Positions 3,130-41,951 of a stretch of DNA of 41,951 bases are shown here, one piece after another (the first letter of the stretch is position 1; the number at the start of each line of letters is the position of its first letter). The notes beneath the pieces are model-generated. The model was given only the letters and a program-made list of their open reading frames with translations. It made no database searches and had not been told where the DNA came from. This stretch comes from a virus, in the IMG/VR virus record IMGVR_UViG_3300009481_000027, positions 1 to 41,951 of that record. One strand, given 5' to 3'. The position numbers were made by a program, and so were the translations under genes.

Positions 3130-4620
3130 GTGCTCGCTAACCAACTAGACCAAATGACGCCCGGTCAGAACGTTTCGGTAGAACGACTGTCCGCTCTCAA
3201 CAAGGCGCTGCGCGCCAACGGCAACCTGCTCGCGAAAGCGGCTCAGGCGGGGTATCCTGCACAGGGCCAAGCGGTGACGGGAGGAGATTACGCCGCCCTG
3301 ATTCCGCAGAGCATCCAGAACACGCTTGACACGGCCTCGTTCACCGAGCACGCCATCAAGTTCTGGACCAAGATCTTCAAACAGCCCGTGGCCAGCACGC
3401 TCCACGAGTCGGCGGTGACGCAGGCCTACGGTGAGATGGCGCTCGACCCGTTCATCTCGGAAGGCGGCGTCGGAAGCACCAGCGACGGTGTGTACGACCG
3501 GAAGATCGTCAAGATCAAGTACCTCGCCGAGAAGCGCGAGATCAGCGACGTGGCGACCATGGTCGGTATCGTGGGCTACAACGGTGTGAGCAAGCAGGGC
3601 CTCGCCCAGCAGACGCTCGACGGCACCCGCGCCCTGCTCGGCAAGACGGAGCGCGCCCTGTTCAACGCGAACAGCAGCCTCTCGCCGCTGCACTTCGACG
3701 GTCTGTTCCGGCAGATCGCGCGCAACGCCGACGATACGGCGTTCAGCGCCAACTACTCGGATCTGGAGGGCGAGGCCTGCACTCCTCAGAAGATCATCGA
3801 GCGCATGTATCAGGTGGCCGACAGCCCGAACTTCGGGTTCACCAACCTGATCATGGTGCCGCCGCGCCTGTACGCCTCGCTGGTGGCCATCGCCATGAGC
3901 TACGGTCGCTTCGACCAAGCCAAGGCCGGACACGGCGAACTGGTGTTCGGCTCCGAGGGCCTGAAGATCGTGGGCCCCGGTGGCCTGATTCCGGTCGAGC
4001 AGTGCCCCCTGATGCTGCAGCCCCAGACCGTGACGGCTGGCGTGGGCACCATCGACCCCAGCGCGGCCGTGGCAGTGCAGACGCAAACCGCCGCCTCCAT
4101 CGACGCCGCCTCTCGCTTCCGCGCGAAGGACGAGGGCGACTACAAGTACAGCGTCGTTGGCGTTGGCGACAAGGGTGTGAACGCCGAGACGACCGACCTC
4201 AATGTCGTGTCCGTTGCGACCGGGGAGAAGGTCACCTTCACCCTGAACGACGACGGGCTCGCGGCGGCGGGGACTCCGAACGGCATCCGGTATTACCGGG
4301 TCTACCGCTCGGCGGCTGACGACACCACGGGAGCGCGCACCCACATGGTGGACGTGGCGCGTAACCTGAACGCGGACGGCACCCCGGCGGGCAAGACCAC
4401 CATTACGGATCTCAACGAGTTCCGGCCCGGTACCGCTCCGGTCTACCTGCTTCAGATGACCCCGGACGTGATGTATTGGGCGCAGCTGCTTGACTTCATC
4501 CGACGCCCACTGGCTCAGGTGACGACGACTGTTCCGTTCCTGCTCATGCTGTTCGGAGCCTTGCACGTCAAGGTCCCGACTAAGTGCTGGGTGATCGGTA
4601 ACGCCGCGCAGTCGCTGTAG
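3130..4620 (+). CDS. Major capsid protein (HK97 fold) with Ig/FN3-like insertion
   Basis: A 496-residue protein directly after the scaffold. The body (about 60-325) has the long helix, E-loop and A-domain pattern of HK97-type capsid proteins and most resembles those of SPO1-like and related large myoviruses. The stretch GLKIVGPGGLIPVEQCPL fits the A-domain. Residues about 329-430 form an inserted beta-rich domain with the look of an FN3/Ig-like fold (GIRYYRVYRS, followed by TTITDL), probably displayed on the shell. The chain then returns to the capsid fold. The first 46 residues probably form a removable delta domain ending near GYPAQG. GTG start at 3130 is preceded by GGAGG at 3116-3120. This must be a highly expressed gene. 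Confidence 0.85.
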   Translation: MLANQLDQMTPGQNVSVERLSALNKALRANGNLLAKAAQAGYPAQGQAVTGGDYAALIPQSIQNTLDTASFTEHAIKFWTKIFKQPVASTLHESAVTQAYGEMALDPFISEGGVGSTSDGVYDRKIVKIKYLAEKREISDVATMVGIVGYNGVSKQGLAQQTLDGTRALLGKTERALFNANSSLSPLHFDGLFRQIARNADDTAFSANYSDLEGEACTPQKIIERMYQVADSPNFGFTNLIMVPPRLYASLVAIAMSYGRFDQAKAGHGELVFGSEGLKIVGPGGLIPVEQCPLMLQPQTVTAGVGTIDPSAAVAVQTQTAASIDAASRFRAKDEGDYKYSVVGVGDKGVNAETTDLNVVSVATGEKVTFTLNDDGLAAAGTPNGIRYYRVYRSAADDTTGARTHMVDVARNLNADGTPAGKTTITDLNEFRPGTAPVYLLQMTPDVMYWAQLLDFIRRPLAQVTTTVPFLLMLFGALHVKVPTKCWVIGNAAQSL

Positions 4621-26590: not shown

Positions 26591-26621
26591 TTGCGCTCAA
26601 CTAAAGTTGCCGTGGTATAAT
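26591..26621 (+). promoter_or_regulatory. Strong sigma70-like promoter with AT-rich UP-like tract
   Basis: TTGCGC (26591-26596) and a perfect TATAAT (26616-26621), separated by 19 bases, with an AT-only style tract directly upstream. The bases 26590-26606 (CTTGCGCTCAACTAAAG) recur exactly at 37792-37808 in front of the HTH regulator, where the -10 is different. The spacer is longer than optimal. Confidence 0.65.
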
Positions 26622-26625
26622 AGAA

Positions 26626-26868
26626 CAGGTGGCAGGGAATACCAGCCACAACGGATGCACTTTGAAAATTCAATCGGGCAGCGGGGGGCCAGCGGAAACG
26701 CAAACACCCGAAGGGGCGCACACAAACCCCGAGCCAAGTAGGAACCGGCGAAAGCTAGGCCGAACACGGCGGCCACGAACCCCTGCGCGGGACGTGGCCT
26801 GACACAGAGAGCAACGCGCATCGTAGCCCGCGCTCTGTGGACACAGGATACGACTCCTTATTTTTTCA
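26626..26868 (+). ncRNA. Candidate phage non-coding RNA
   Basis: Downstream of the promoter, before any gene, the transcript would fold into several hairpins: GGCCACG/CGTGGCC near 26771-26800 with an inner CCC/GGG stem, and CACAGAG/CTCTGTG near 26803-26840 with inner pairings. AGGA/TCCT with the following TTATTTTTT (to about 26866) would act as an end signal. There is no supported ORF. It could equally be a long leader for the first accessory gene. Confidence 0.4.
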
Positions 26869-26875
26869 AAGCATC

Positions 26876-26983
26876 TCCCCAACGCTGTGAAGCGCGGGGG
26901 ACTCGCACAAAGGTGACGCCTTGACGTGGCGTGCGAGCTTCTTGACTAAGAGCACCTATCCCGATGCAAACCCAAAACAGGAG
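26876..26983 (+). promoter_or_regulatory. Structured leader element, copy A
   Basis: HP1: TCCCC/GGGGA around CGCT-GTGA-AGCG (GNRA loop). P1: CTCGCAC (26902-26908)/GTGCGAG (26931-26937). P2: CGCC/GGCG with loop TTGACGT (26921-26927). P3 pseudoknot: AGGTG (26911-26915) in the linker with CACCT (26953-26957) downstream of ACTAAG (26945-26950). Then GATGCA (26963) and AGGAG (26979). This architecture recurs in copies B-G. The same bases can be read as TTGACG-18-ACTAAG, a promoter. Confidence 0.75.
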
Positions 26984-26993
26984 ACTACGAACG

Positions 26994-27347
26994 ATGGCGC
27001 GAAGTGACCACTTCAAAGGCGACGGGTACAAGATCCCGAAGCTGAGCACATTGACCAAGGACTTGCGGGCTGCATTCGGCAAGCGAGGCGACCGGACGCT
27101 CTACGCGGGCTTGACTGTTCGTGCGGGCGGCTGGTGCCTTAGCTTGGCGTATGGCAGAGACGGCGAAGCCCTTGACGAGCACCTTGACGACTACCGCATT
27201 GACAAGCGCTATGCGGTAGCCTCGGCGCTGCTCGTGAAGGACCCCGGCGAGGCCTCGACCATCCTGCTGACCAGCATCTGGCGAGCGCTGGACGGCGACC
27301 ATCCCAAGAAGGCCCACGCGGCAGCGACCAGAGCGCTGGCGGCGTGA
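26994..27347 (+). CDS. Small basic protein, unidentified
   Basis: A 117-residue protein, the first gene of the accessory region. It reads as a small alpha/beta fold: strands around TLYAGLTVRAGGWCLSLAYG and a long C-terminal helix STILLTSIWRALDG. Not recognised. ATG 26994 has AGGAG ten to fourteen bases upstream within leader element A. An in-frame ATG at 26964 lies within the GATGCA motif and would add ten residues, but it precedes the ribosome site. It forms a single-gene unit between elements A and B. Confidence 0.6.
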   Translation: MARSDHFKGDGYKIPKLSTLTKDLRAAFGKRGDRTLYAGLTVRAGGWCLSLAYGRDGEALDEHLDDYRIDKRYAVASALLVKDPGEASTILLTSIWRALDGDHPKKAHAAATRALAA

Positions 27348-27353
27348 CTTTCT

Positions 27354-27445
27354 GGCCCGACCGGGCCACCCCTACGATAATCAGGCACCTTGACGCGGTG
27401 TGGGGGCTTTCAACTAAGACCTGACCCGATGCAAACCCAAAGGAG
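27354..27445 (+). promoter_or_regulatory. Structured leader element, copy B
   Basis: HP1: GGCCC/GGGCC with loop GACC. P1: CCCCTAC (27369-27375)/GTGGGGG (27400-27406), one wobble. P2: CACC/GGTG with loop TTGACGC (27390-27396). P3 pseudoknot: TCAGG (27381-27385)/CCTGA (27420-27424). ACTAAG 27413-27418, GATGCA 27428, AGGAG 27441. Confidence 0.75.
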
Positions 27446-27453
27446 AGACCAAC

Positions 27454-27693
27454 ATGATGCAAGTGACTGCAATTCCGGCAACCCTCAACTCTGTCCTGCC
27501 TGACAGCCGCCTACGCAAGATGACCGAGCCGACCAAGGCGCGGCCCTACTTCGTGGTGGCGGGCAAGACGAGTTGGCGCAAGCCGTTCAGCGTGTATTTG
27601 GCGACCGACAAGGACCCGACCGAGGTGTGCTGCACCGACGTGGCTGCCAACGCCGACCTGATCGCCAAGTCGCTCAACGACCAGTTCGCATGA
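27454..27693 (+). CDS. Small protein, unidentified
   Basis: A 79-residue protein with a beta-rich centre (ARPYFVVAGKTSWRKPFSVY) and a C-terminal helix. Not recognised. Two ATG codons, 27454 and 27457, follow the leader's AGGAG; either is usable. Its stop overlaps the next start in ATGA, so the two genes are probably co-translated from the same leader (element B). Confidence 0.55.
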   Translation: MMQVTAIPATLNSVLPDSRLRKMTEPTKARPYFVVAGKTSWRKPFSVYLATDKDPTEVCCTDVAANADLIAKSLNDQFA

Positions 27694-28061
27694 GACACCA
27701 GATCATCGTAGGCAACGTCGGCACGGTGTGTGACACCGATGACGGGCTGGAGGCTCAAAAAGACTTCAGCGCGTACCTGAACGCGGACAACGCGGGACGG
27801 GCCGATGGCGAGACGCTGACGTGGATGGACGGCGGCGAGGTCAAGGCTGAGCGGATCGTGGGCGAGGGCCAAGGCCTGACCTTGTGTAAGCACTGCGCCT
27901 TCGTGGTGGCCAGCGGCGACCCTACGCCGTTGGACTTCCACCACGACGCAGAGCAGGCCGAGCGACTGCATGAGTGGCTTGGGCGCGTTCACAGCGCGAC
28001 CAAGATCCGCACCATCGCGGACGACGACTGGACCACCCGCTGCGACGCGGGCCACTGTTGA
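27690..28061 (+). CDS. Small acidic protein with CxxC, unidentified
   Basis: A 123-residue acidic protein starting in ATGA overlap. It has one CKHC pair (near residues 67-70) and further cysteines at the end (RCDAGHC), so metal binding is possible but not shown. No family recognised. It is the second gene of the unit driven by element B and is followed directly by the hairpin of element C. Confidence 0.55.
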   Translation: MRHQIIVGNVGTVCDTDDGLEAQKDFSAYLNADNAGRADGETLTWMDGGEVKAERIVGEGQGLTLCKHCAFVVASGDPTPLDFHHDAEQAERLHEWLGRVHSATKIRTIADDDWTTRCDAGHC

Positions 28062-28066
28062 ACCCT

Positions 28067-28157
28067 GCCCCGCAAGGGGCACCCCATCAATCTGGACGCC
28101 TTGACGTGGCGGTGGGGCTTTTTGACTAAGAGCCAGAACGATGCAAAACCCAAGGAG
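28067..28157 (+). promoter_or_regulatory. Structured leader element, copy C
   Basis: HP1: GCCCC/GGGGC with GCAA tetraloop. P1: CCCCAT (28082-28087)/GTGGGG (28112-28117), one wobble. P2: CGCC/GGCG with loop TTGACGT (28101-28107). P3 pseudoknot: TCTGG (28091-28095)/CCAGA (28133-28137). ACTAAG 28125-28130, GATGCA 28140, AAGGAG 28152. Confidence 0.75.
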
Positions 28158-28166
28158 ACAGACAAG

Positions 28167-28460
28167 ATGACTCAACCGAGAAGATACATCACGCACGAGT
28201 CGTGCGAAGCGACCAAGACCCGCCCCCAAAAGCTGGCCGTGGTTGCGGCGAACGCTCACGTGATGGAGGACAACGGCAAGACGCTCCGGATCATGACTGA
28301 CCGGCGTGGCGTGTCGGTATTGGCCAGCATCTTCGCCTTCCGGACCACCTTCAAGACCTCGCGGGACGCCTTCGGCAACCGTGAGGCCGTGTTGACCCTG
28401 AAGCGTGAGAATGTGCTCGTGGTGGGCGCTCCCGACCTTAGCTGGCGGGGGTGCGCATGA
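28167..28460 (+). CDS. Small basic protein, unidentified
   Basis: A 97-residue basic protein. It contains a beta-rich middle (GKTLRIMTDRRGVSVLASIF) and a C-terminal strand KRENVLVVGAP. Not recognised. The ATG lies nine bases after AAGGAG. It opens a four-gene unit under element C in which every junction overlaps or abuts: ATGA to the next gene, directly abutting at 28760, ATGA at 29179. Confidence 0.55.
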   Translation: MTQPRRYITHESCEATKTRPQKLAVVAANAHVMEDNGKTLRIMTDRRGVSVLASIFAFRTTFKTSRDAFGNREAVLTLKRENVLVVGAPDLSWRGCA

Positions 28461-28759
28461 GCGAGGGAATCATCAGCATCACCGTGAAGACGGAGGCAGG
28501 ATCGTTCGGAGCGGTCAAGCCCTCGGAGCACGCGACTTCGGTCCACTGCAACCGCACAGCACACAACTGCAAGGTGAACAGGACTGACCGGCTGGTGGTG
28601 CGTGGCGGTGAGGTGACCATCGGTCACGACACCTACACGGCCCCGTGCCAGTGCTGCGACTGTGACGAGATCATCGGCACGCTCGTGGTGAAGGTATCCA
28701 CCATCTTCGGCATCGAAGAGGACGCGCGCGTGTTGAACGGGCGTTACCGGGTGTATTAG
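28457..28759 (+). CDS. Small Cys-rich protein, unidentified
   Basis: A 100-residue protein with six cysteines: VHCNRTAHNCKV near residues 30-38 and PCQCCDCDE near residues 64-69. This may be a zinc-binding module. Starts at ATG 28457, overlapping the upstream stop (a GTG six bases earlier is possible). Not recognised. Its stop directly abuts the next start. Confidence 0.55.
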   Translation: MSEGIISITVKTEAGSFGAVKPSEHATSVHCNRTAHNCKVNRTDRLVVRGGEVTIGHDTYTAPCQCCDCDEIIGTLVVKVSTIFGIEEDARVLNGRYRVY

Positions 28760-29182
28760 ATGCCCGACTACACCGTAGACCTCGCCGGGCTGCCCTTCGG
28801 GCGGCTCTGGCAGCACAGCGTTCTCGTGGTGGCTGACTACCCCAATGACGCCATCCTGAAGGTTGCCCCCACGGTTGCCACCGGCATTTACATGAAGGTG
28901 CGCGACAGCGAGGGCATCTGGCAGGCCAACATGGGCAAGCTGGACCCGTTCGTGCCCGATCAGGACAGCGTTCCGGTCGAGGTGGCGATGGCGCTGAAGC
29001 AGACCGGCGCGCAGCGTGAAGCGCTCGCAGGGCTGTTGACGCGATACCCCGATCACACCAAGGTGGACCGGGTTCTCGGTGGCGGCGGCCTCCCTAGCGA
29101 CTGGCTGCTGTTCACCATCTGGGACGGCAAACGCAACGTGCTGACCGGTGGCATCGACCCGCAAGGGGGGATCAACACATGA
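28760..29182 (+). CDS. Protein of unknown function in element C operon
   Basis: A 140-residue protein starting directly after the preceding stop. It is alpha/beta (LWQHSVLVVADYPNDAILKV; SVPVEVAMALKQTGAQREAL) with a Gly-rich loop (VLGGGGLPSDW). Not recognised. The end overlaps a further very short gene. Confidence 0.55.
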   Translation: MPDYTVDLAGLPFGRLWQHSVLVVADYPNDAILKVAPTVATGIYMKVRDSEGIWQANMGKLDPFVPDQDSVPVEVAMALKQTGAQREALAGLLTRYPDHTKVDRVLGGGGLPSDWLLFTIWDGKRNVLTGGIDPQGGINT

Positions 29183-29322
29183 TCCGGAGGACCGACAGCA
29201 ACCCGCGCGACGCCGTTGCGGTGGCATGGCGGCAGCTTATTGACGCGACCGTGACGCTGCTGACACTTGGCCGGTACACCACCGACTTCGCATTCCGGCA
29301 TATGTTCCGTAGCGATGCCTGA
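29179..29322 (+). CDS. Very small protein (47 aa), unidentified
   Basis: A 47-residue frame, MIRRTDSNPRDAV at the start, then a helix AVAWRQLIDATVTLLTLG and a basic end. ATG overlaps the upstream stop (ATGA), and the stop is followed at once by the element D hairpin, exactly as for neighbouring genes. This context, rather than its length, supports it as real. GGGGGG about ten bases upstream may serve as ribosome site. Confidence 0.5.
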   Translation: MIRRTDSNPRDAVAVAWRQLIDATVTLLTLGRYTTDFAFRHMFRSDA

Positions 29323-29323
29323 C

Positions 29324-29415
29324 GCCCCTTACGGGGCACCCCCACATGAGACAGCGCCTTGACGTGGCGTGGGGGCTTTCAACTAAGCTGACTCACCCGA
29401 TGCAAACCAAGGAGA
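29324..29415 (+). promoter_or_regulatory. Structured leader element, copy D
   Basis: HP1: GCCCC/GGGGC with loop TTAC. P1: CCCCCAC (29339-29345)/GTGGGGG (29369-29375). P2: CGCC/GGCG with loop TTGACGT (29359-29365). P3 pseudoknot: TGAGACAG (29347-29354)/CTGACTCA (29388-29395), one A-A mismatch. ACTAAG 29382-29387, GATGCA 29399, AAGGAG about 29409. Confidence 0.75.
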
Positions 29416-29423
29416 CAGGAAAA

Positions 29424-29696
29424 ATGACCAAGCAAGAGCTATTCGATTCTCTTGACGAGGCGCACCACGGCACGGTGCAGCGATGGCTGGACCGGGGCGA
29501 TGGCGTGGCCGTCTACGAGAACGCGGAACTCGGCCACCCCGACCTCGGTCACAAGAAGTTCGTGAGCTTCGGTAGCGCTCAGGCGCGACTGGAGCCCAAC
29601 GTGTGCGACGATGACGGCAACCCGCCTCAGCGGATGCCCGATATCGGCGGGCAGATCAACTGGCGGTACCAACTGACGGGAACGGTGAGAGCATGA
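29424..29696 (+). CDS. Small acidic protein, unidentified
   Basis: A 90-residue acidic protein, helical at the N-terminus (TKQELFDSLDEAHHGTVQRW) and beta-rich after. Not recognised. It opens the three-gene unit of element D. An in-frame ATG in GATGCA (29400) would extend it by eight residues, but lies before the ribosome site. Its stop overlaps the next start in ATGA. Confidence 0.55.
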   Translation: MTKQELFDSLDEAHHGTVQRWLDRGDGVAVYENAELGHPDLGHKKFVSFGSAQARLEPNVCDDDGNPPQRMPDIGGQINWRYQLTGTVRA

Positions 29697-30037
29697 GCAG
29701 TCGAACAAACGAGCGCGGCAACATCATCGTTGACGAATTCACGGGACCGTTCGCAGAGCGGTACCAGTTCGACCGTGAGTATCTCGCGGCAGGGTTCAAG
29801 CAGTGGGACACGGATCAGGACGCCAGCTACTTCGGCGTTTGGGTCCATGTGGAGACCCGTGTGATTGTCACCTTCGCAGAGGGCGACCTGAGCACGGTGA
29901 CCTGCCCCACGGACGAGTCGTTCAAGGCTGAGATCGCGAATATGCGAGCGTTCTACGGGGACGTGCCTCGCGCCTTCGCCATACTTGACCCCGACGCGGG
30001 CACGCTGACAAACGTGCACGTGGCGAGGCCGGCATGA
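29693..30037 (+). CDS. Protein of unknown function
   Basis: A 114-residue acidic protein; beta-rich with aromatic residues (ASYFGVWVHVETRVIVTF). Not recognised. ATGA overlaps on both sides place it in one translational unit with its neighbours. Confidence 0.55.
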   Translation: MSSRTNERGNIIVDEFTGPFAERYQFDREYLAAGFKQWDTDQDASYFGVWVHVETRVIVTFAEGDLSTVTCPTDESFKAEIANMRAFYGDVPRAFAILDPDAGTLTNVHVARPA

Positions 30038-30429
30038 GCAGGCTGCACTTCCCCGACCGACCGTTCCGGGACCTGTTCACGAAGGTGACCCCGCCGCCGA
30101 CCAGACCGGCGTGGATCTACTTCCGCGAGGCAGGGACGCCGTTCGTGATTCGCGAGGCCGAGAGCGAGCGACGCAACCCCTCTGGCGTGATCATCAGCGA
30201 GTACATGACGATCAGCGGGTATGAGCACCCGCATGGCAGCATGTACGTTGCCCCGACTCGGGAGCTTTCCGAGTTCATCTGGGACAACATGGTCGCGGTT
30301 GACTACGACCGGATCTACTTCAAGGCAACGGTGCGCACCAACGGCATCGTTCTGCTCAGCGCGCACTACAACCAAATCCTCGGAGGCCGATGGCTGACGA
30401 CGATGCCGCTGGCAGATTTTCCGCAATAG
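30034..30429 (+). CDS. Protein of unknown function
   Basis: A 131-residue protein, alpha/beta (SEYMTISGYEHPHGSMYVAP; FIWDNMVAVDYDRIYFKATV). Not recognised. Last gene of the element D unit, closed by a hairpin (30440-30474) that starts the variant leader H. Confidence 0.55.
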   Translation: MSRLHFPDRPFRDLFTKVTPPPTRPAWIYFREAGTPFVIREAESERRNPSGVIISEYMTISGYEHPHGSMYVAPTRELSEFIWDNMVAVDYDRIYFKATVRTNGIVLLSAHYNQILGGRWLTTMPLADFPQ

Positions 30430-30439
30430 TGACTAGACA

Positions 30440-30570
30440 CGCGCCCGCCATGGACGTTAGACCTGACTGGCGCGATGTTCCCCCATGGGCAGCCACCTCC
30501 GCGTGGTGGGGAACGGGCAACGCACAGCCTTGTGCGGCAAGGGCTGACCCCGATGCATTCTGAAAAGGAG
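30440..30570 (+). promoter_or_regulatory. Variant structured leader H (no TTGACG, no ACTAAG)
   Basis: HP1-like hairpin CGCGCC (30440-30445)/GGCGCG (30469-30474). P1: GTTCCCC (30477-30483)/GGGGAAC (30508-30514). P2: ACC/GGT with 7-base loop TCCGCGT (30498-30504). P3 pseudoknot: CAGCC (30490-30494)/GGCTG (30542-30546), with hairpin CGCACA/TGTGCG (30521-30536) in the connector. GATGCA 30552, AAGGAG 30565. The promoter-like boxes of copies A-G are missing while the fold is kept. Confidence 0.6.
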
Positions 30571-30578
30571 AACACGAG

Positions 30579-31328
30579 ATGACGACTTCGTACACCGAGC
30601 AGCAGATCGCCAAGATGGGCCAGAAGGACCTCGTGGCGGCGCTGGACGCGATGGAGGTGGACTACATGGGCACGGGCAAGACCGTGCCCAAGGCCGACAC
30701 CCTCCGGAGCATCCTGCTGCGCGAGCAGGCGAAGGCCGACAAGGCCGCCGCCAAGAAGAAGCCCGCCGCCAAGAAGAAGGCCCCCGCCAAGGCGGAGACC
30801 AAGAAGCCCGCCGCCAAGAAGGCCACCGAGGGCGACAACAGCGGCGGCGACTCGGACGACCTCGACGCGGCCTTGGGTGACGCCAACGCCAAGACGGCGG
30901 CCAAGAAGGCGGCCAAGAAGCAGGTCGACCGGGTGGGTCGCTCGGGCAGCCGTGGCTGGGCGCTGATGATGCTTTCGGCCATCGTGACCGAGGGACCGGT
31001 CAGCCTCACCGACCTGTACAAGCAGGAAGAGGCCGACCTGTACAGGTTCGGACGTGGCGGCAACCCGCGCACCGAGAGCACCGTCGAGGTGCGGGCGCGC
31101 GAGTTCCGCAAGTACGGTCGCTGCTTCGGCGTGACCGTGAACGTCAGCCTCTCGGCCAAGACGCTGGAGATCGACCGCAAAAAGACCAACAAGTCCGTAC
31201 TAAAGGCCATGGACAAGGCCGTGGGCGAGATCCTGACCGAGACCGAGCCGCCCGCCGACTTCAAGCCGCCCGCGCTTCAGGGCAGCGACAAGGCCAAGGC
31301 GGCCCGCGCCAAGAAGAAGGCCGCGTAA
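30579..31328 (+). CDS. Histone H1-like / SAP-like DNA-binding protein
   Basis: A 249-residue basic protein. Residues 1-50 (KDLVAALDAMEVDY, then KADTLRSILL) resemble a SAP/HeH helix-extension-helix motif. Residues 52-115 are Lys/Ala/Pro-rich like the tail of histone H1 and bacterial H1-like proteins (AAKKKPAAKKKAPAKAETKK). Residues 115-220 form a folded, mostly helical domain with GSRGWALMMLSAIVTEGP, reminiscent of a winged helix. The end is again Lys/Ala-rich. It probably binds DNA; whether it shapes phage or host DNA is unknown. ATG has AAGGAG nine to fourteen bases upstream. Confidence 0.6.
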   Translation: MTTSYTEQQIAKMGQKDLVAALDAMEVDYMGTGKTVPKADTLRSILLREQAKADKAAAKKKPAAKKKAPAKAETKKPAAKKATEGDNSGGDSDDLDAALGDANAKTAAKKAAKKQVDRVGRSGSRGWALMMLSAIVTEGPVSLTDLYKQEEADLYRFGRGGNPRTESTVEVRAREFRKYGRCFGVTVNVSLSAKTLEIDRKKTNKSVLKAMDKAVGEILTETEPPADFKPPALQGSDKAKAARAKKKAA

Positions 31329-31440
31329 GCAGCCTGCCCCTTCGGGGGCTGCGCCCCGTAGACACAACCTCCCCGTGGTGGGGCGTGGGTAACGCCAATA
31401 GTGTCTAACCAACCCGATGCAATCTTTGACTAACAGGAGA
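31329..31440 (+). promoter_or_regulatory. Variant structured leader I (no TTGACG)
   Basis: HP1: GCCCC/GGGGC with TTCG tetraloop (31336-31349). P1: CGCCCC (31352-31357)/GGGGCG (31380-31385). P2: ACC/GGT with loop TCCCCGT (31370-31376). P3 pseudoknot: TAGACAC (31359-31365)/GTGTCTA (31401-31407). GATGCA 31415, AGGAG about 31435. Shares ACCTCC, CGTGGTGGGG and GGGYAACGC with variant H, so the two are paralogues. Confidence 0.65.
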
Positions 31441-31446
31441 ATCGAA

Positions 31447-32460
31447 ATGGGAACCAGAACTACGGCCGATGCCGTTGTGGACTCCGCCACCAAGATCGCC
31501 ACCAAGATCGCCAGCGCGGCCAACACCGACTACCTCGGCTACTTCGCGTGGTACGAGGTGGACTCCGGGCTGGGGATCGGGAACGACGATCTCAAGGCGC
31601 TGTTCGCCACGCATGGGCTGGACGACAAGTACCTCCCCACGCTGCCCAGCAACCGCCTCGTGTTCAGCCGACTGATCGGCAAGGTGACCAAGGGCCTCGC
31701 CGACACCATCGTCGCCCCGATCCAGAAGGGCGGCCTGAATAAGGCTGAGGTCCATGGCCTCTACCCGGTCGAGACGACGGATGACGCGAAGGTGCTGGAC
31801 AAGGACGCTAAGCTGGGCGACCCGCTCACCAAGATCGGGTTCATCCCCGGTGACCTGCGCGCGGACGGCAACGACACCGTGCTGTTCAAGCCTGCCCACC
31901 CGGCAGCTGGTGCGCTCAAGGCCAACTGGCTGACTCAGTGTGGGCAGTTCGCGTCCCCGGACGTGAGCAGCTTCGTACGCGACCTGTTCCGGCAGATGGC
32001 GCGCGTGCGGCTCAAGCGGTTCGGGCACATTTACTTCGTGCCCGGTCAGTACGGCGACCTGCTCGCCAAGCTGAGCGCTGTGGTCAATGCCCTTCCGGGT
32101 GAGACCGCGCTGCGCACCATCCCGGTGCCCAACGTGCCCGAGAGCGTCATCGCCATCCAGAGCGAGGCGCGCAAGGGCCTTGAGGGCGACGTGAAGGCGC
32201 TCACCGAGCGCATCGAGGCGTTCGGTGACAAGACCCGTGAGACCACGCTGGACGCGGCTATCGAAGAGGCGAGAGCGCTCAAAGAGATGGGCGCGCTCTA
32301 CAAGGCCGTGGCTCAGACGCGGGTCGATGACTTGCAGGCCTCGCTCTGCAAGCTCGCCAACGAGACCCGCAAGAAGCTGGGCATGCCCCCGCTGTACGAC
32401 GGCAAGGGCAACGAGATCGAGTACGACGACGACGGCAACCCCGCCGTGGACGCTGACTAG
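31447..32460 (+). CDS. DUF6744-like phage protein upstream of MoxR/VWA
   Basis: A 337-residue protein. The N-terminal half begins with a helix (VVDSATKIATKIASAANTDY), then YFAWYEVDSGLGIGNDDLKA, which reminds me of the DUF6744 family found with MoxR-like ATPases in phages; this match is from memory and tentative. The C-terminal half is a long coiled-coil-like region (VKALTERIEAFGDKTRETTL) ending in an acidic tail (EIEYDDDGNPAVDAD). Likely an accessory partner of the ATPase genes downstream. ATG follows AGGAGAATCGAA. Confidence 0.5.
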   Translation: MGTRTTADAVVDSATKIATKIASAANTDYLGYFAWYEVDSGLGIGNDDLKALFATHGLDDKYLPTLPSNRLVFSRLIGKVTKGLADTIVAPIQKGGLNKAEVHGLYPVETTDDAKVLDKDAKLGDPLTKIGFIPGDLRADGNDTVLFKPAHPAAGALKANWLTQCGQFASPDVSSFVRDLFRQMARVRLKRFGHIYFVPGQYGDLLAKLSAVVNALPGETALRTIPVPNVPESVIAIQSEARKGLEGDVKALTERIEAFGDKTRETTLDAAIEEARALKEMGALYKAVAQTRVDDLQASLCKLANETRKKLGMPPLYDGKGNEIEYDDDGNPAVDAD

Positions 32461-32514
32461 CACCCGCCAAGCGCCCACAACCTGCCCCACCCAAGCATAC
32501 CCACCGAGAACCTG

Positions 32515-32618
32515 CCAGAGTGGCTGACATGGCCCCTCTGGCCCCGCCTCGATACGCTCACACCCCCGTGGGCGTATGGAGATGGGTGTGTTTTCACCTG
32601 ATTCTGATGCAAAAGGAG
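32515..32618 (+). promoter_or_regulatory. Variant structured leader J (pseudoknot with U-run)
   Basis: HP1-like hairpin CCAGAG (32515-32520)/CTCTGG (32536-32541). P1: ATACGC (32552-32557)/GCGTAT (32572-32577). Crossing stem: CACACCC (32559-32565)/GGGTGTG (32584-32590), followed at once by TTTT. There is almost no inner hairpin. GATGCA 32606, then AAAAGGAG. The second stem plus TTTT also looks like an intrinsic terminator, exclusive with P1 if not pseudoknotted. Confidence 0.55.
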
Positions 32619-32628
32619 AACCTGACTA

Positions 32629-32961
32629 ATGAACAACCTGACTCATTACGTGAACGGGTGCCACCCCTCAAGGGTGAGCGCGTCCACGGCAAGCACAAGC
32701 GATGACCTTGACGAGGTCGATTGCGGCGCATGCCTGAACATCACGAAGGGCAAGATGATCCCGACCGCGCACGACAAGGCGCACTTCGCCGAGACCATCA
32801 AAGGCCTGCGTGAGCCTGACGAGACATTCGACTGCTGCGAGAGCGGCGGTTGTGACTGCCACATCAGCGAGACGATCATGACCAGCTTTGGCTACGCCGA
32901 GGCCTACCGTGACGGCGAGGTGATCTCTGGCGGGCGAGTCGTGTGGAGGGAAGAGGCATGA
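32629..32961 (+). CDS. Small Cys-rich protein, unidentified
   Basis: A 110-residue protein with several cysteine clusters: VDCGACLN (near 31-35) and DCCESGGCDCH (near 69-77), suggesting metal binding. Not recognised. ATG lies twelve bases downstream of AAGGAG in variant leader J. ATGA overlap with the next gene. Confidence 0.55.
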   Translation: MNNLTHYVNGCHPSRVSASTASTSDDLDEVDCGACLNITKGKMIPTAHDKAHFAETIKGLREPDETFDCCESGGCDCHISETIMTSFGYAEAYRDGEVISGGRVVWREEA

Positions 32962-33500
32962 TCACCTGCAGCTACTTCGACGTCCTGATCCAGCGGGTTG
33001 GCAGTGACGAGCCGATCCACCACCATCGCGGTGACGAGCGCCCGTTCACGCTGGCCAACGACGACCTTCAGGTCAACGCCGAGCTTATGGGCCGGGGACT
33101 CCCTCCAATCGAGGGTTGGACTCCCGACCCGGACAGCCCCGGCGTGTACATGCTGAGCCAGCAAGAGGACGGCGACGGGATGGAGGCGCCCGATGGCGAC
33201 TTCATCGCTGTCTACACCATCAAGCTGGTGTGTCACGGCGGCGAGTTCTGGCCACACGGTCACCGGCCGTGGCACCGGAACCCCGCCCTTCTGACCGAGC
33301 TTTCCGAGCAACTGGCCAATCCGGACTACTACCGGACGGTCTACGGGTGCATTGAGGTGACGGTCCACGGTAGCGATGGCGAGAAGATCGCATCGTGTGC
33401 GCCCGACTACTTCCTCGACATGTACAGCAACGGGTTCCACCAAGACGGCAACGCCGTTGACTGGAGCGACGTGCGGTCACTGACCGTGCGGACCATCTGA
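32958..33500 (+). CDS. Protein of unknown function
   Basis: A 180-residue protein, beta-rich (DFIAVYTIKLVCHGGEFW; RTVYGCIEVTVHGSDG), rich in His, Asp and Trp. Not recognised. ATG overlaps the upstream stop. Its stop is followed by two hairpins, GAGCG/CGCTC (33514-33529) and the HP1 of element E. Confidence 0.55.
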   Translation: MITCSYFDVLIQRVGSDEPIHHHRGDERPFTLANDDLQVNAELMGRGLPPIEGWTPDPDSPGVYMLSQQEDGDGMEAPDGDFIAVYTIKLVCHGGEFWPHGHRPWHRNPALLTELSEQLANPDYYRTVYGCIEVTVHGSDGEKIASCAPDYFLDMYSNGFHQDGNAVDWSDVRSLTVRTI

Positions 33501-33513
33501 GGCTAGGCCTCAT

Positions 33514-33529
33514 GAGCGTTTCGGCGCTC
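33514..33529 (+). terminator. Hairpin after the element J operon
   Basis: GAGCG (33514-33518) pairs with CGCTC (33525-33529) around TTTCGG, followed by CTTGTGTTTG. Short stem with a mixed T-run; a modest terminator candidate before element E. Confidence 0.35.
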
Positions 33530-33547
33530 CTTGTGTTTGCATCCGGT

Positions 33548-33646
33548 CGCCCCATGTTGGGGCGGCCACCCCGGTGATGGCTGACCACCTTGACGTGGTG
33601 CCGGGGCTTCTGACTAAGAGTTGGCCGCAACCGATGCAACAAGGAG
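33548..33646 (+). promoter_or_regulatory. Structured leader element, copy E
   Basis: HP1: CGCCCC/GGGGCG with loop ATGTT. P1: CCCCGG (33569-33574)/CCGGGG (33601-33606). P2: CACC/GGTG with loop TTGACGT (33590-33596). P3 pseudoknot: TGGCTGAC (33578-33585)/GTTGGCCG (33620-33627), with wobbles. ACTAAG 33613-33618, GATGCA 33633, AAGGAG 33641. Controls the MoxR gene. Confidence 0.75.
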
Positions 33647-33655
33647 AAATGACTA

Positions 33656-34795
33656 ATGGACGATACAAGAACCCGAATCACCAAGGCGATCCAGTTCACG
33701 AACACGCAGTTCGCGGAGCGTGAGCACATGGTGAGCCTGATCTGGGCGGCGTTTCTGGCGCAGTTCCACGTGTGGCTGGTGGGCCCTCCGGGGTCGGCCA
33801 AGTCGATGCTGATCCGCTACCTCGCGGCTCAGATCACCGACTCGCGCTACGCGGAGAACCTGATGAGCAAGTTCACCAAGTACGAGCAGGTCTTCGGCCC
33901 GCTCAAGCTGAGCAAGCTCAAGCAGGACGTCTACGAGCACGACACGGATGGATACCTGCCGACCGCGCACGTGTACTTCGCTGACGAGGGCGGTCGGGCC
34001 AACGTGGCCATCACCGAGGCCATGCTGACCGTGATGAACGAGCGCTTCTTCCAGAACGGCAAGACCCGCGCGAAGGTCCCGACCTTCACGATCCTCTCGG
34101 GCTCCAACACCGTTCTGACCGACGCCGAGCAAGCGGCCTTCGTTGACCGCTTTCTTGCCATGGTGTTCTGTGAATGGGTGCGCTCTGACAGCGCGCTGCA
34201 TGACCTGATGGGTCGCGGCGCTCCGAAGGTGTGCCCGCACACGGTGACGCTGGGCGAGTTGGCCAAGGCGCAGGACGAGGTGAAGCGGATCCACGTGCCC
34301 GACCCGTTCAAGGACGCTGTCATCTCGGTGAAGCGTGGCCTGAGCGAGAAGGGCATCACCCACAGCACGCGCCGCTGGCTGGCCATCGTGTCCGGTCTCA
34401 AGGCGTTCGCGTGGATGGACGGCGACGCTTCGCTTCAGGTCCACCATCTCGACCACGCGATCAACATGCTCTGGCAGCGCCCCGAGCATCGCACCGTGGT
34501 CGAGGGCGTGGTCGGCAACCAGTGCAACCCGCTGATCGCCGAAGCCGTAAAGCTCAAGGATCGGGCGACCATCGTGCTCCGGGACATGCCCGCGAGCATG
34601 GACGAGGCCGGTGCGTTCAGCAAGGCGGGGCGGATCAACTCCACCCTGACCGACGTGCTGGCCGACCTGAAGAAGATCATCGACAGCAACCCCCCGGCGC
34701 GGACGACCGCCGTGCGAACGATTCACCGCGACGTGAAGAGCAAGCATGACGAGATGCTGCGCATGCTGCGTGAGAACAGCGGCGGTCTGGTGTGA
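33656..34795 (+). CDS. MoxR-type AAA+ ATPase
   Basis: A 379-residue AAA+ ATPase of the MoxR/RavA type. Walker A is GPPGSAKS (43-50), Walker B VYFADE (106-111), the sensor-1 region LSGSNTV (148-153), and the arginine finger region VDRFLAMVF (R165). MoxR ATPases act with VWA-domain partners as chaperone-like machines that remodel or load proteins; that partner is encoded next door. The C-terminal helical lid follows (HSTRRWLAIVSGLKAFAWMD). It has its own structured leader (E), and the VWA gene has another (F), suggesting separate but co-ordinated control. Target unknown. Confidence 0.8.
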   Translation: MDDTRTRITKAIQFTNTQFAEREHMVSLIWAAFLAQFHVWLVGPPGSAKSMLIRYLAAQITDSRYAENLMSKFTKYEQVFGPLKLSKLKQDVYEHDTDGYLPTAHVYFADEGGRANVAITEAMLTVMNERFFQNGKTRAKVPTFTILSGSNTVLTDAEQAAFVDRFLAMVFCEWVRSDSALHDLMGRGAPKVCPHTVTLGELAKAQDEVKRIHVPDPFKDAVISVKRGLSEKGITHSTRRWLAIVSGLKAFAWMDGDASLQVHHLDHAINMLWQRPEHRTVVEGVVGNQCNPLIAEAVKLKDRATIVLRDMPASMDEAGAFSKAGRINSTLTDVLADLKKIIDSNPPARTTAVRTIHRDVKSKHDEMLRMLRENSGGLV

Positions 34796-34801
34796 TGTGA
34801 C

Positions 34802-34894
34802 GCCCCTTCGGGGGCACCCTTGCGATGCTCTGACCCCTTGACGTGGGGCAGGGGCTTTTGACTAAGCTCAGGGCAACCGATGCAAACCAAGGAG
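34802..34894 (+). promoter_or_regulatory. Structured leader element, copy F
   Basis: HP1: GCCCC/GGGGC with TTCG tetraloop. P1: CCCTTGC (34817-34823)/GCAGGGG (34848-34854), one wobble. P2: CCCC/GGGG with loop TTGACGT (34838-34844). P3 pseudoknot: GCTCTGA (34827-34833)/TCAGGGC (34868-34874), one wobble. ACTAAG 34861-34866, GATGCA 34879, AAGGAG 34889. Controls the VWA gene. Confidence 0.75.
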
Positions 34895-34901
34895 AAAAAC
34901 A

Positions 34902-36335
34902 ATGCGATTCAATATGACTAGTTGGGTTCTCGGTATGTGGCGCGAGTTCATGCGGCCACGTCTGATGACCATCGAGAAGGCCCCGGAGGTGCGAACCTTC
35001 ACCGACCTGATCGAGGATATCTGGGCGCTGCTCTTGGACTCGCTAAACCAGACCAAGGCCCCGGTTCGCCGAGGGCACGAATGGGCTGACCGCGTTCTCA
35101 CGATGATCGAGAGTCTGCCCGAGTTCCAGCGGCTCCATCGACGGTGCGGGCTGGACCCGTGGCGCTCGCTGGTGTCTACGTCGGTGCTCATGGAGGCGCT
35201 GGCCAAGGCGCTTCCCGAGTTCGCGAAGGTGGTCGATGACGCCGAGCGGATGCAGGACGAGCTTCGCGGGCTGGCTGACCTGCAGGCGCATGGCGTGGTG
35301 GTGTCCGCTCTCAGCGGTCCGACCCATGCCCTCGCCCTGCTCGACGCCGCCGACCTTGAGTACGCCGACCTGTGCGATGCGAGCGCGGCTGACATTCGGC
35401 AGTGCGTTCGTGACGCCTGTGAGGCTGCCGGGACTCGGATCTCGGAGCTTGAGGACATTGTCGAGGCCATGCCCGGTAACGGGTGGGGTCAGGGCAAGAG
35501 CACCGGCACAATGACGGCTGCTGACGTTCGACAGCGCGAGAAGCTGGCCAACAAGGTCGCGCGCGGTGGCAAGATCAAGCGCATCCTGCAGATGGCGGGC
35601 CGCATGATCCGTGTCGCCGAGCGTGTCCAGTCCAGCAAGGTGGACACGCTGGCCAGCGAGGTGGTGGGGATCGAGCGCGGCGCAGACACCGACCGCTTGC
35701 TTCCGAGCAGCCTGCTCGGGCTGGTGGGCGGGCCCGCGATGGAGACTCATTTCTACACGCAGTTTCTGCAGGAGGACTTGTCACAGTACAAGATGGTCGG
35801 CAGGGACAAGGTGGCTCGCGGGCCGGTGGTGTTGCTCATGGACTGCAGCGGCAGCATGAGCGGCCCGCGTGAAGAGTGGGCGAAAGCAGTGGGCTGGGCT
35901 CTGGCCAAGCTCGCCGCCAAGCAGAGCCGCAGCTTCATCGCCGCCGAGTTCAACACGAAGATCGTCAAGAAGTCGGTGTTCGTGATCGAGGCGGGGCAGG
36001 ATGCCGACACTGAGGCGCTGATGCGATGGCTGACGCACTTCACGGCCAGCGGTGGCACGTCGTTCGACGGCCCGCTGGACTGGGCCATGGGGCAGATCGA
36101 GTCGAGCCCCGCGTTCAAGAAGGCCGATATCGTGCTCGTCACCGATGGGCAGTGCGGTGTCTCGGATGCGTGGCTGACCCAGTTCCAAGCCAAGCGTCGA
36201 AGCATCGGCACACGGCTGCTGGGCGTGGGCATCGCTTGCCGGGTCAACCTGCTGGCGACGCTCTGCGACGACGTGGCTCGTGTGGATGACCTCGACCCCG
36301 ATGGGCCCCACGCTGCCGTGGTGTTCAGCGTGTGA
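34902..36335 (+). CDS. VWA-domain protein (ViaA/CoxE-like partner of MoxR)
   Basis: A 477-residue protein. The N-terminal 300 residues are helical. The C-terminal von Willebrand A domain carries an intact MIDAS metal site: DCSGS (D314, S316, S318), T386 in SGGTSFDG, and D415 in LVTDG. This layout, helical region then VWA at the end, is that of ViaA/CoxE-type partners of MoxR ATPases. With the ATPase upstream it should form one machine, with the VWA domain recognising the substrate through a bound metal. AAGGAG lies seven bases before the ATG; a second ATG at 34914 is possible. Confidence 0.8.
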   Translation: MRFNMTSWVLGMWREFMRPRLMTIEKAPEVRTFTDLIEDIWALLLDSLNQTKAPVRRGHEWADRVLTMIESLPEFQRLHRRCGLDPWRSLVSTSVLMEALAKALPEFAKVVDDAERMQDELRGLADLQAHGVVVSALSGPTHALALLDAADLEYADLCDASAADIRQCVRDACEAAGTRISELEDIVEAMPGNGWGQGKSTGTMTAADVRQREKLANKVARGGKIKRILQMAGRMIRVAERVQSSKVDTLASEVVGIERGADTDRLLPSSLLGLVGGPAMETHFYTQFLQEDLSQYKMVGRDKVARGPVVLLMDCSGSMSGPREEWAKAVGWALAKLAAKQSRSFIAAEFNTKIVKKSVFVIEAGQDADTEALMRWLTHFTASGGTSFDGPLDWAMGQIESSPAFKKADIVLVTDGQCGVSDAWLTQFQAKRRSIGTRLLGVGIACRVNLLATLCDDVARVDDLDPDGPHAAVVFSV

Positions 36336-36340
36336 CTCTG

Positions 36341-36431
36341 CGCCCTTCGGGGCGTACCCTTGCAAGCCAGCCGCCTTGACGCGGCGCAAGGGCTTTGAAA
36401 CCAAGTGCTGGCGCAAACCTGATGCAAGGAG
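36341..36431 (+). promoter_or_regulatory. Structured leader element, copy G
   Basis: HP1: CGCCC/GGGCG with TTCG tetraloop. P1: CCCTTGC (36357-36363)/GCAAGGG (36386-36392). P2: CGCC/GGCG with loop TTGACGC (36376-36382). P3 pseudoknot: GCCAGC (36366-36371)/GCTGGC (36407-36412). The connector box is ACCAAG (36400-36405) rather than ACTAAG. GATGCA 36421, AAGGAG 36426. Confidence 0.75.
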
Positions 36432-36438
36432 ACTGAAA

Positions 36439-37182
36439 ATGGACCAAGGAAGAAACAGGCTGTCCCTGCTCTACTCGGGATATGGACTTGACGTGAACGT
36501 GCCGTGGTGGATCTGCAAACGGCTGGGGTACCAACGGAGCTACGACAAGGGCTCGCCCGAGCGGTTCCAGATCGTCCAGCAGGTCAGGGGCACCGTGTCC
36601 GCGAAGCTGTCAGCCGACGGGGTTTCGCACAGCCGGGACGACCTCATTGCCTTGGAAGAGCTTGACGTGACCAGCACGTTCTGCCTCTACCGGGCCATGA
36701 TGGTGCTGTCATACTCGCTGAACGGCGAGGGCGACCCCGACGCCGACTGGAACCCGGAACACGTGTGCGACTGGGTGCCGGACGACGACGGCTACACGCG
36801 CAAGCGCTTCTGGCACTGCGTTCAGTTCGTGTACCAGAAGTGCCGCGTGCACCTCTCGCACGTTCTGGGGAGCGTTGTCAGCGCGTTCGCCAGTAACACG
36901 GGCGTGCCGCCCGAAGGATGGCTGGAAGAGCCCGGAGAGCCGGTGACTGTTGTGCACCGGCTGGCGGGGGAGCCTCTGGCCCCCGGCGTTCACCGGGTGA
37001 AGGTGACCGATGTGAAGGTGACCGATGGGAAGGTGGTGGTGGACATGGAGCGATTCAGGCCCGCCGTTGACTTCTCGGGATTTGGCGAAGAGGACGAGGC
37101 ACCCGCAGAGCCTCGCCGGGTCAGGCCGCGCGGAATGCGGGACCCGATCCAGCGCGGACCCGAGGAAGAGGGGCCGTTCTAA
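36439..37182 (+). CDS. Protein of unknown function
   Basis: A 247-residue protein. Mixed alpha/beta with aromatic-rich stretches (RLSLLYSGYGLDVNVPWWIC; KRFWHCVQFVYQKCRVHLSH), then a flexible acidic and basic C-terminus (PAEPRRVRPRGMRDPIQRGP). Not recognised. ATG follows AAGGAG by seven bases. Its stop overlaps the next start in TAATG. Confidence 0.55.
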   Translation: MDQGRNRLSLLYSGYGLDVNVPWWICKRLGYQRSYDKGSPERFQIVQQVRGTVSAKLSADGVSHSRDDLIALEELDVTSTFCLYRAMMVLSYSLNGEGDPDADWNPEHVCDWVPDDDGYTRKRFWHCVQFVYQKCRVHLSHVLGSVVSAFASNTGVPPEGWLEEPGEPVTVVHRLAGEPLAPGVHRVKVTDVKVTDGKVVVDMERFRPAVDFSGFGEEDEAPAEPRRVRPRGMRDPIQRGPEEEGPF

Positions 37183-41136: not shown

Positions 41137-41168
41137 CTTCTGAGTTCGGGAGCCGTGCAGCTCAGAAG
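41137..41168 (+). terminator. Hairpin after the SSB gene
   Basis: CTTCTGAG (41137-41144) and CTCAGAAG (41161-41168) pair perfectly over 8 bp with a 16-base loop, immediately after the SSB stop. No T-run. It is followed by a small GCCC-TTCG-GGGT hairpin. Confidence 0.45.
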
Positions 41169-41483
41169 AGGTCCGCCCTTCGGGGTCAGCCTCATCAGGC
41201 AGAGCACCGGCAATAACCGGGGATGGCGTGGGTGTGAGGCCCACCATGGTCTCCCGGCTCAGACAGCGCCCCGACCCGGTCACCCCCGAGTCGGATCGGT
41301 AGCCGTAGCACAGCGGCGACCGTGTAAACGGCGTGAGGTGTGCTTGCGGGGATGGGAGTCCCCGCTGAATCCAGTGCCCTCCCGGAAATAAGTCACCGGG
41401 AAGGGGGAGAGGGGTGACGCCTGACCGAGTTCGATACTCGGCACTGGATCCTTGTAGCCAAACGTAACCGGACTGGATTGGAA
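41169..41483 (+). other. Structured stretch without a gene
   Basis: About 315 bases with no credible frame but many short stems: CCGG/CCGG around CAATAA (41210-41225), GTGGG/CCCAC (around 41231-41247), CCGAC/GTCGG, CCGT-GTAA-ACGG (41320-41335), GCGGGG/CCCCGC (41346-41365) and the tRNA-like element at the end. Parts read like D-arm or anticodon-arm pieces (CAGGCAGAGCA), but none closes into a full tRNA. Confidence 0.5.
41370..41448 (+). tRNA. tRNA-like element, anticodon arm unclear
   Basis: A 7-bp acceptor stem TCCAGTG (41370-41376)/CACTGGA (41442-41448) directly abuts a T-arm CCGAG-TTCGATA-CTCGG (41425-41441) with a nearly canonical T-loop. Between them lie 48 bases, more than the usual 41. 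A TCCCGG/CCGGGA stem with a 10-base loop can form there, but no normal 5-bp anticodon stem with a 7-base loop was found, and CCA is not encoded. It may be a divergent or decayed tRNA, or an RNA that mimics one. Confidence 0.35.
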
Positions 41484-41951
41484 GTGTCAGCCATCACCCT
41501 GCCCCCACGTTGGGGGCAAAACAGCTTCTCGCGCTCTGTAGGCTGGATAGGCCGAGCGGCGATAGTCGAGATGGCGACCCTTGCCGAAGAGTTGGGGACG
41601 TGGCCCTCTCTGAGTCGTGAGAACTGTCACCCGAGCAGGCTGGCGCTCCAGACCGGGATGATCGGTATGGAGAAGCAGATTACTTCAGCAATAAAAGCAG
41701 CGATTACGGCAGGTTTCTTTGTCGTAGCTGACGCCGGGGCCTCTCTCAGGGTTGGGACGGACTACTCGTCACAACACCCCGAATCTGCTGATGTTTCAGC
41801 CGAAGAAGTGGTCACGGTGAAGGTGATCGGTGCCCACGGAGCGGACCTCAGCCTTGACCTTTTTGTTTCGGGAAAAGGCCAGCAATCCCTTGCACTTGGA
41901 GATGCAAAGCGGGCCCCAACTTCCAGCCAAATCCATGGTTCCCCCTGTTCC
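41484..41951 (+). CDS. Protein with possible winged-helix domain (3' partial)
   Basis: A frame without stop from 41418 to the window edge; the likely start is GTG 41484 with GGATTGGAA upstream, or ATG 41571. The segment SVGWIGRAAIVEMATLAEEL and, after it, SRLALQTGMIGMEKQITSAI looks like a winged helix-turn-helix as in replication initiators or regulators. The following sequence (VVTVKVIGAHGADLSLDLFV) is beta-rich. It uses more A/T-ending codons than the other genes, so it may have been acquired or be non-coding in part. Not otherwise recognised. Confidence 0.4.
   Translation, partial: MSAITLPPRWGQNSFSRSVGWIGRAAIVEMATLAEELGTWPSLSRENCHPSRLALQTGMIGMEKQITSAIKAAITAGFFVVADAGASLRVGTDYSSQHPESADVSAEEVVTVKVIGAHGADLSLDLFVSGKGQQSLALGDAKRAPTSSQIHGSPCS

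Follow-up and report, generated by a model that had tools for sequence, protein, structure and literature searches.

Predicted hepatitis delta virus-like self-cleaving ribozymes with a variant active-site loop in the leaders of a phage gene block

We analyzed a set of repeated leader RNAs in a 41,951-base viral sequence, the IMG/VR record IMGVR_UViG_3300009481_000027 (positions 1 to 41,951, hereafter the window). The leaders belong to a block of small genes at 26.9-36.4 kilobases, in which all genes lie on one strand and in which we found nine elements resembling the ribozyme of hepatitis delta virus (HDV): seven minimal ones and two of the canonical type. The seven minimal elements are best read as small HDV-like self-cleaving ribozymes that lack P4 and have a variant active-site loop, and the nine sites as co-transcriptional cut sites that would segment a polycistronic transcript. 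We give this reading, in which cleavage is predicted from the fold, a probability of about 0.88. The nine predicted cleavage sites fall within about 10 kilobases of same-strand genes.

Fold and class of the leader elements

A first-pass annotation of the same DNA had described seven copies of a pseudoknotted leader RNA with covarying stems and had found no named family with this layout. All seven elements were located where it had placed them, although the starts it gave take in an upstream hairpin that was left undescribed. Its order of strands (P1, the 5' strand of its P3, its P2, P1' and P3') corresponds to P1, the 5' strand of P2, P3 with L3, P1' and P2' of HDV-like ribozymes. The fold is the nested double pseudoknot of that class, with the catalytic cytosine in J4/2. 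The layout does therefore have a named class, since both the strand order and the J4/2 cytosine match it and two canonical neighbors match the Rfam family RF02682 below threshold; a ribozyme and a processing site had been among the candidates listed earlier, but the known family had not been recognized. The coordinates of the seven elements are as follows.

26902..26957, + strand: minimal HDV-like ribozyme 1 (P1 26902-26908; L3 26921-26927; catalytic C 26946; predicted cleavage 26901/26902)
27369..27424, + strand: minimal HDV-like ribozyme 2 (catalytic C 27414)
28082..28137, + strand: minimal HDV-like ribozyme 3 (catalytic C 28126)
29339..29395, + strand: minimal HDV-like ribozyme 4 (catalytic C 29383; P2 with one mismatch)
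33569..33626, + strand: minimal HDV-like ribozyme 5 (catalytic C 33614; precedes the gene at 33656-34795)
34817..34875, + strand: minimal HDV-like ribozyme 6 (catalytic C 34862; precedes the gene at 34902-36335)
36357..36412, + strand: minimal HDV-like ribozyme 7 (catalytic C 36401; box ACCAAG)

The outer stem had been given as 6-7 base pairs; in the HDV register P1 is exactly 7 base pairs long in every copy (49/49 pairs), and a contiguous P3 of 3 base pairs is likewise complete (21/21 pairs). The loop L3 has 7 nucleotides and reads UUGACGY in 7/7 copies, in agreement with the invariant TTGACGY first noted, and the positions U20, C24, G25 and Y26 are present. The J4/2 box, which contains C-N-A-A with the catalytic cytosine, had been reported as ACTAAG throughout; this sequence was confirmed in six copies, copy 7 being the exception. 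P2 (the P3 of the first-pass annotation) has 5-8 contiguous base pairs, with 7/8 pairs in copy 4, and the J1/4-J4/2 segment of 7-8 nucleotides leaves no room for P4.

The earlier count of seven missed two further related elements in the same block:

30477..30548, + strand: canonical HDV-like ribozyme A with P4 (L3 UCCGCGU; J1/4 GGGCAAC; catalytic C about 30538)
31351..31407, + strand: HDV-like ribozyme B with canonical L3 and vestigial P4 (L3 UCCCCGU; catalytic C about 31395)

The catalytic cytosine and C24/G25 of L3 are unchanged in all nine elements. In a relaxed-threshold scan against all Rfam families (4227), ribozyme A matched RF02682 (HDV-F-prausnitzii) with 37.9 bits (E-value 4.7e-4) and ribozyme B (31351-31408) with 33.7 bits (E-value 0.0045), both below the gathering score of 44; ribozyme B also matched RF00094 (31.8 bits). 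The best of the seven minimal copies reached 16.4 bits against the Rfam HDV models, probably because of its inverted P1.1 pair, described below, and its missing P4. The Rfam check suggested earlier reached no family anywhere in the window at gathering thresholds, as the subtype lies outside the Rfam models.

The subtype is distinguished by P1.1. Among the HDV-like folds that we collected, about 100 have C21C22 facing G38G39 and a few have UC facing G38, whereas the window type has U21G22 facing C38U39. The putative inner pair is inverted, being G22:C38 in the window type and C22:G38 in canonical elements, which is a compensated change between subtypes. Within the subtype G22:C38 is possible in all members and invariant, partly because the search patterns fix it. 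The G of L3 and its U partner are important in HDV-like ribozymes (PMC3774820). A possible HDV-like fold was also seen at 2500-2570 of another contig (L321, cr272_1), with L3 GUUACGU and G instead of U at position 20; its P1.1 would be U22:A38.

A structural descriptor of the HDV geometry (hit threshold, score >= 13.5) gave seven hits on the + strand of the window, namely six of the seven minimal copies and the element at 31351 (score 16.9), and zero hits on the - strand; copy 4 was lost because of its single P2 mismatch. The background was 0.005 hits per window in 200 Markov resamplings, and the collected loci yielded 127 distinct folds versus 1 hit in 4.15 megabases of Markov-resampled sequence. 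When strands were swapped between the seven copies, P1 pairing dropped to 5.38 of 7 (permutation p = 4e-4) and P2 pairing from 5.46 to 3.17 (permutation p = 1e-4). Covariation was analyzed in 55 distinct sequences of the subtype, seven of them from the window. P1 was 98.4% paired, with double-sided changes at all seven pairs, and P3 was 100% paired. The covariation score was 0.723, compared to 0.197 for shuffled and at most 0.14 for slid alignments (0/500 shuffles). P2 lies outside the covariance model, yet its own strands pair at 6.54 versus 3.43 when swapped. The search patterns fix the inner two P3 pairs as well as G22/C38, so that these positions carry no covariation information within the subtype. 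Taken with the strand swaps in the window, the P1 and P2 pairing in this larger set, which the first-pass annotation had proposed to model, bears out its claim of a selected, pseudoknotted RNA structure.

Flanking hairpins and the proposed cut sites

At all nine sites of the window a stable hairpin, its loop often UUCG or GNRA-like, ends 0-2 nucleotides before P1, and a Shine-Dalgarno sequence and a start codon follow within 90 nucleotides downstream. The hairpins are located as follows.

26876..26901, + strand: hairpin upstream of ribozyme 1 (-16.3 kcal/mol; ends 0 nucleotides before P1; predicted 3' end of the upstream RNA)
27354..27368, + strand: hairpin upstream of ribozyme 2
28066..28081, + strand: hairpin upstream of ribozyme 3
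29324..29338, + strand: hairpin upstream of ribozyme 4
30440..30474, + strand: hairpin upstream of canonical ribozyme A (interrupted stem)
31336..31349, + strand: hairpin upstream of canonical ribozyme B
33545..33567, + strand: hairpin upstream of ribozyme 5
34802..34815, + strand: hairpin upstream of ribozyme 6 (UUCG loop)
36339..36356, + strand: hairpin upstream of ribozyme 7 (UUCG loop)

For comparison, a hairpin of at most -8 kcal/mol is present at 6% of randomly chosen positions in the collected loci and at 18% of grid positions in the GC-rich window. A hairpin abuts P1 in 34 of the 55 subtype members, and a transfer RNA (tRNA) 3' end takes its place in five. Cleavage by HDV-like ribozymes falls on the 5' edge of P1, so a cut there would leave the hairpin, or the tRNA, as the 3' terminus of the upstream RNA.

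The anatomy of the window, with nine predicted cuts, each flush with a hairpin and ahead of a ribosome-binding site, points to segmentation of messenger RNA (mRNA). Each ribozyme would fold during transcription and cut just 5' of P1, at a site predicted to within 1 nucleotide on either side. The upstream message would then end in a stable hairpin carrying a 2',3'-cyclic phosphate, and the downstream message would begin with a 5'-OH and the folded, compact pseudoknot, followed by the Shine-Dalgarno sequence and the start codon. In this manner the polycistronic transcript would be cut, without host RNases, into gene-sized and end-protected mRNAs that may be separately stable and separately translated. 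The long transcript of the phage is probably divided at these points by its own ribozymes, and the likely use of the elements is to break the polycistronic transcript of this block up into separate mRNAs. The idea of a conserved cleavage-site wobble between the A before P1 and the C opposite it, after P1, was dropped, as position -1 can also hold U or C outside the window.

The alternative that survives best is that the fold is indeed HDV-like, but that cleavage has been lost or is irrelevant and the RNA serves instead as a 5' element for stability or translation, or as a leader that binds a protein or ligand. A leader pseudoknot could act by itself, and the C at position 1 is unusual for an HDV-like ribozyme. 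We nevertheless consider this unlikely, because the catalytic cytosine and C24/G25 are retained in 9/9 elements and because a hairpin abutting the predicted cut site would have little purpose unless the RNA is cleaved there.

Several other features of the window were recorded. The gene after ribozyme 5 (33656-34795) encodes a MoxR-like AAA ATPase, and the gene after ribozyme 6 (34902-36335) matches phrog_24053, of unknown function. A GATGCA(A) box was observed just before the Shine-Dalgarno sequence in eleven leaders, with or without a ribozyme and including those of ribozymes A and B, at the window positions below; GATGCAA as an alternative start codon was rejected by inspection, its frame relative to the gene not being constant.

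GATGCA(A) boxes: 26963, 27428, 28140, 29399, 30552, 31416, 32606, 33633, 34879, 36421, 38179

In the leader of the gene at 32629 (32515-32595) the hairpin CCAGAG...CTCTGG precedes an H-type pseudoknot (ATACGCT/GGCGTAT and CACACCC/GGGTGTG), and this leader may be another structured or cleaving RNA. Its segment 32559-32592 was examined as a further HDV-like candidate and rejected by inspection, as the H-type pseudoknot is without a P3 hairpin. A tRNA search of the 41,951-base window found none. Non-coding, tRNA-like pieces, ATCCAGTGC...GCACTGGAT around a T-arm-like GAGTTCGATACTC, can be seen at 41165-41500, with no ARAGORN or Rfam call.

Recurrence in other phages and competing explanations

Degenerate patterns fixing L3 and J4/2 were scanned over the IMG/VR viral contigs. 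The strict pattern was found in five contigs, all of which fold fully, and gave 0 hits in 257 gigabases of bacterial and archaeal genomes; a looser pattern gave 11 hits in bacterial and archaeal genomes, none among the folds found by the descriptor. With N at L3 position 23 (UUGNCGY), 68 stretches of IMG/VR were retrieved, and 41 distinct sequences among them pass the descriptor. The covariance model R1, built from five sequences, collected 71 members, 55 of them distinct and including the seven of the window; the viral contig scans added about 50 further distinct members from unrelated phages. No relatives of the window phage were found via its ATPase, and its larger open reading frames share no proteins with the viral loci against which they were compared, therefore the recurring arrangements do not simply reflect one lineage.

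Serial arrangements were observed in other contigs. In an unrelated, GC-rich phage contig of 16 kilobases (L173, record G008), five canonical HDV-like ribozymes lie within 3.1 kilobases, each of them in a leader; near 4306 of this contig an apparent remnant was noted, consisting of the 5' strand of P1 alone before a ribosome-binding site. Record G013 has four HDV-like ribozymes and L270 three UUGNCGY copies. Moreover, about 22 crAss-like contigs have a single UUGNCGY ribozyme 85-540 nucleotides downstream of a gene whose protein matches a major head family. The UUGNCGY ribozyme was also found in crAssphage ctcc615 (MH552500.1, L322) and in a human fecal phage clone (L323). No ribozyme follows the capsid gene in the cultured crAss-like Cellulophaga phage phi17:2 or in Leptolyngbya phage Lbo-JY46. 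Among blastn matches in Klebsiella phages, the one inspected is an ordinary terminator. The main loci are listed below.

L173, positions 2851, 3353, 4884, 5396, 5919: canonical HDV-like ribozymes in leaders with hairpins and Shine-Dalgarno sites
L006, L010, L017, L029, L268, L269, L275, L278, L283, L284, L289, L290, L296, L307, L309, L311 and others: crAss-like contigs with a ribozyme after the major head protein gene
L308 (2677 and 3039, - strand), L303, L266, L287: UUGNCGY ribozymes immediately adjoining tRNA 3' ends, as theta ribozymes do

That the cassette recurs in unrelated phages and has a conserved place behind the crAss-like capsid gene supports the view of mRNA segmentation. On balance we favor the broader proposal that the UUGNCGY elements form an undescribed, phage-specific branch of HDV-like ribozymes with an inverted P1.1, whose hairpin-ribozyme-Shine-Dalgarno cassettes would cut phage mRNA into end-protected messages, for example the capsid mRNA of crAss-like phages and single-gene mRNAs in the window.

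These data also bear on the possibility that the repeated TTGACG-N17/18-ACTAAG marks a series of sigma-70-like promoters, each serving one gene group, with the inverted repeats being incidental. The fixed spacing of 17-18 nucleotides between TTGACG and ACTAAG and the location upstream of genes would suit such an array. It is, however, very improbable: a sigma-70 scan of 26600-36600 found no site (shuffle mean 1.0), ACTAAG is poor as a -10 element, compensatory changes in P1 and P2 are not expected of promoters, the leaders at 30477 and 31351 have a canonical HDV-like ribozyme in place of the motif, and the elements are also found next to tRNA 3' ends and behind capsid genes. Least probable of all are transcription terminators or attenuators, formed by the GC-rich P1/P3 hairpin and the following CTTTT, since despite the GC-rich stem and 2-5 T only one of the seven copies was called terminator-like (34835-34854), the total calls were at the shuffle expectation (8 vs 6.8), the run of T is not continuous and is absent from the canonical HDV-like copies, and P2 covariation would be left unexplained.

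Returning to self-cleaving ribozymes, five points weigh against our interpretation. P1.1 has at most one standard pair, as U21/U39 does not pair. Rfam HDV models reach their gathering score for 0/9 elements of the window. The cleavage-site pair is C1:G37 in all seven minimal copies, and characterized HDV ribozymes usually have G1 at this pair; the unusual C1 makes the cleavage rate and the exact site uncertain. Cleavage, like its effects on stability and expression, is a prediction from sequence. Finally, with no protein shared between the window phage and the contigs compared with it, the nine-fold arrangement is without a close comparative series.

Comparison with known systems

HDV-like ribozymes have few known jobs in bacteria and phages, and their published phage role is tRNA 3'-end processing (PMC10879173). 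Theta ribozymes, described in 2024, are minimal HDV-like ribozymes of phages that are active in vitro and lie mostly at tRNA 3' ends; in 58% of the set the cleavage site adjoins a tRNA 3' end, and 526 hits away from tRNAs were left without a function by the authors (PMC10879173). Like the seven elements, theta ribozymes and drz-Mtgn-1 are phage-borne, lack P4 and form a nested double pseudoknot. Owing to its 7-nucleotide L3 UUCCCGU and its GACUAA around the catalytic C (quoted in PMC10879173), drz-Mtgn-1 is the nearest described relative. The copies in the window differ in that they lie between protein genes behind a hairpin and not at tRNA 3' ends, in that L3 is UUGACGY with a P1.1 of G22:C38 instead of C22:G38, and in that one genome has seven copies together with two canonical elements. 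RF02682 and RF00094 share the P1/P2/P3/J4-2 topology, and RF02682 is matched below threshold at 30477-30548 and 31351-31408, whereas the seven copies are without P4 and the canonical L3/P1.1.

The closest parallel in arrangement is that of the hammerhead ribozymes clustered around prophage genes (Perreault et al. 2011), of which three arrangements were reported to cleave in vitro and one in E. coli, and for which processing of long phage transcripts was proposed (PMC3088659). In those genomes too, single genes or short gene blocks have several self-cleaving ribozymes at their borders. The ribozyme class and fold are different, however, and a flush 3' hairpin is not described in the available text of that paper (PMC3088659).

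In mainly open-access literature we found no paper that describes the UUGNCGY type or HDV-like ribozymes arranged serially in the mRNA leaders of phages, although some UUGNCGY sequences may already stand in the supplementary tables of the theta ribozyme study (PMC10879173). As a natural P1.1 inversion, the subtype lends itself to structure-function studies of the HDV active site, and it provides an RNA-family model that Rfam does not have. As far as the sources consulted extend, a serial arrangement in phage genes had previously been proposed for hammerheads only. The class to which the leader elements belong is known, being that of the HDV-like ribozymes; what appears to be new is the sequence subtype and the way in which it is used serially in mRNA leaders.

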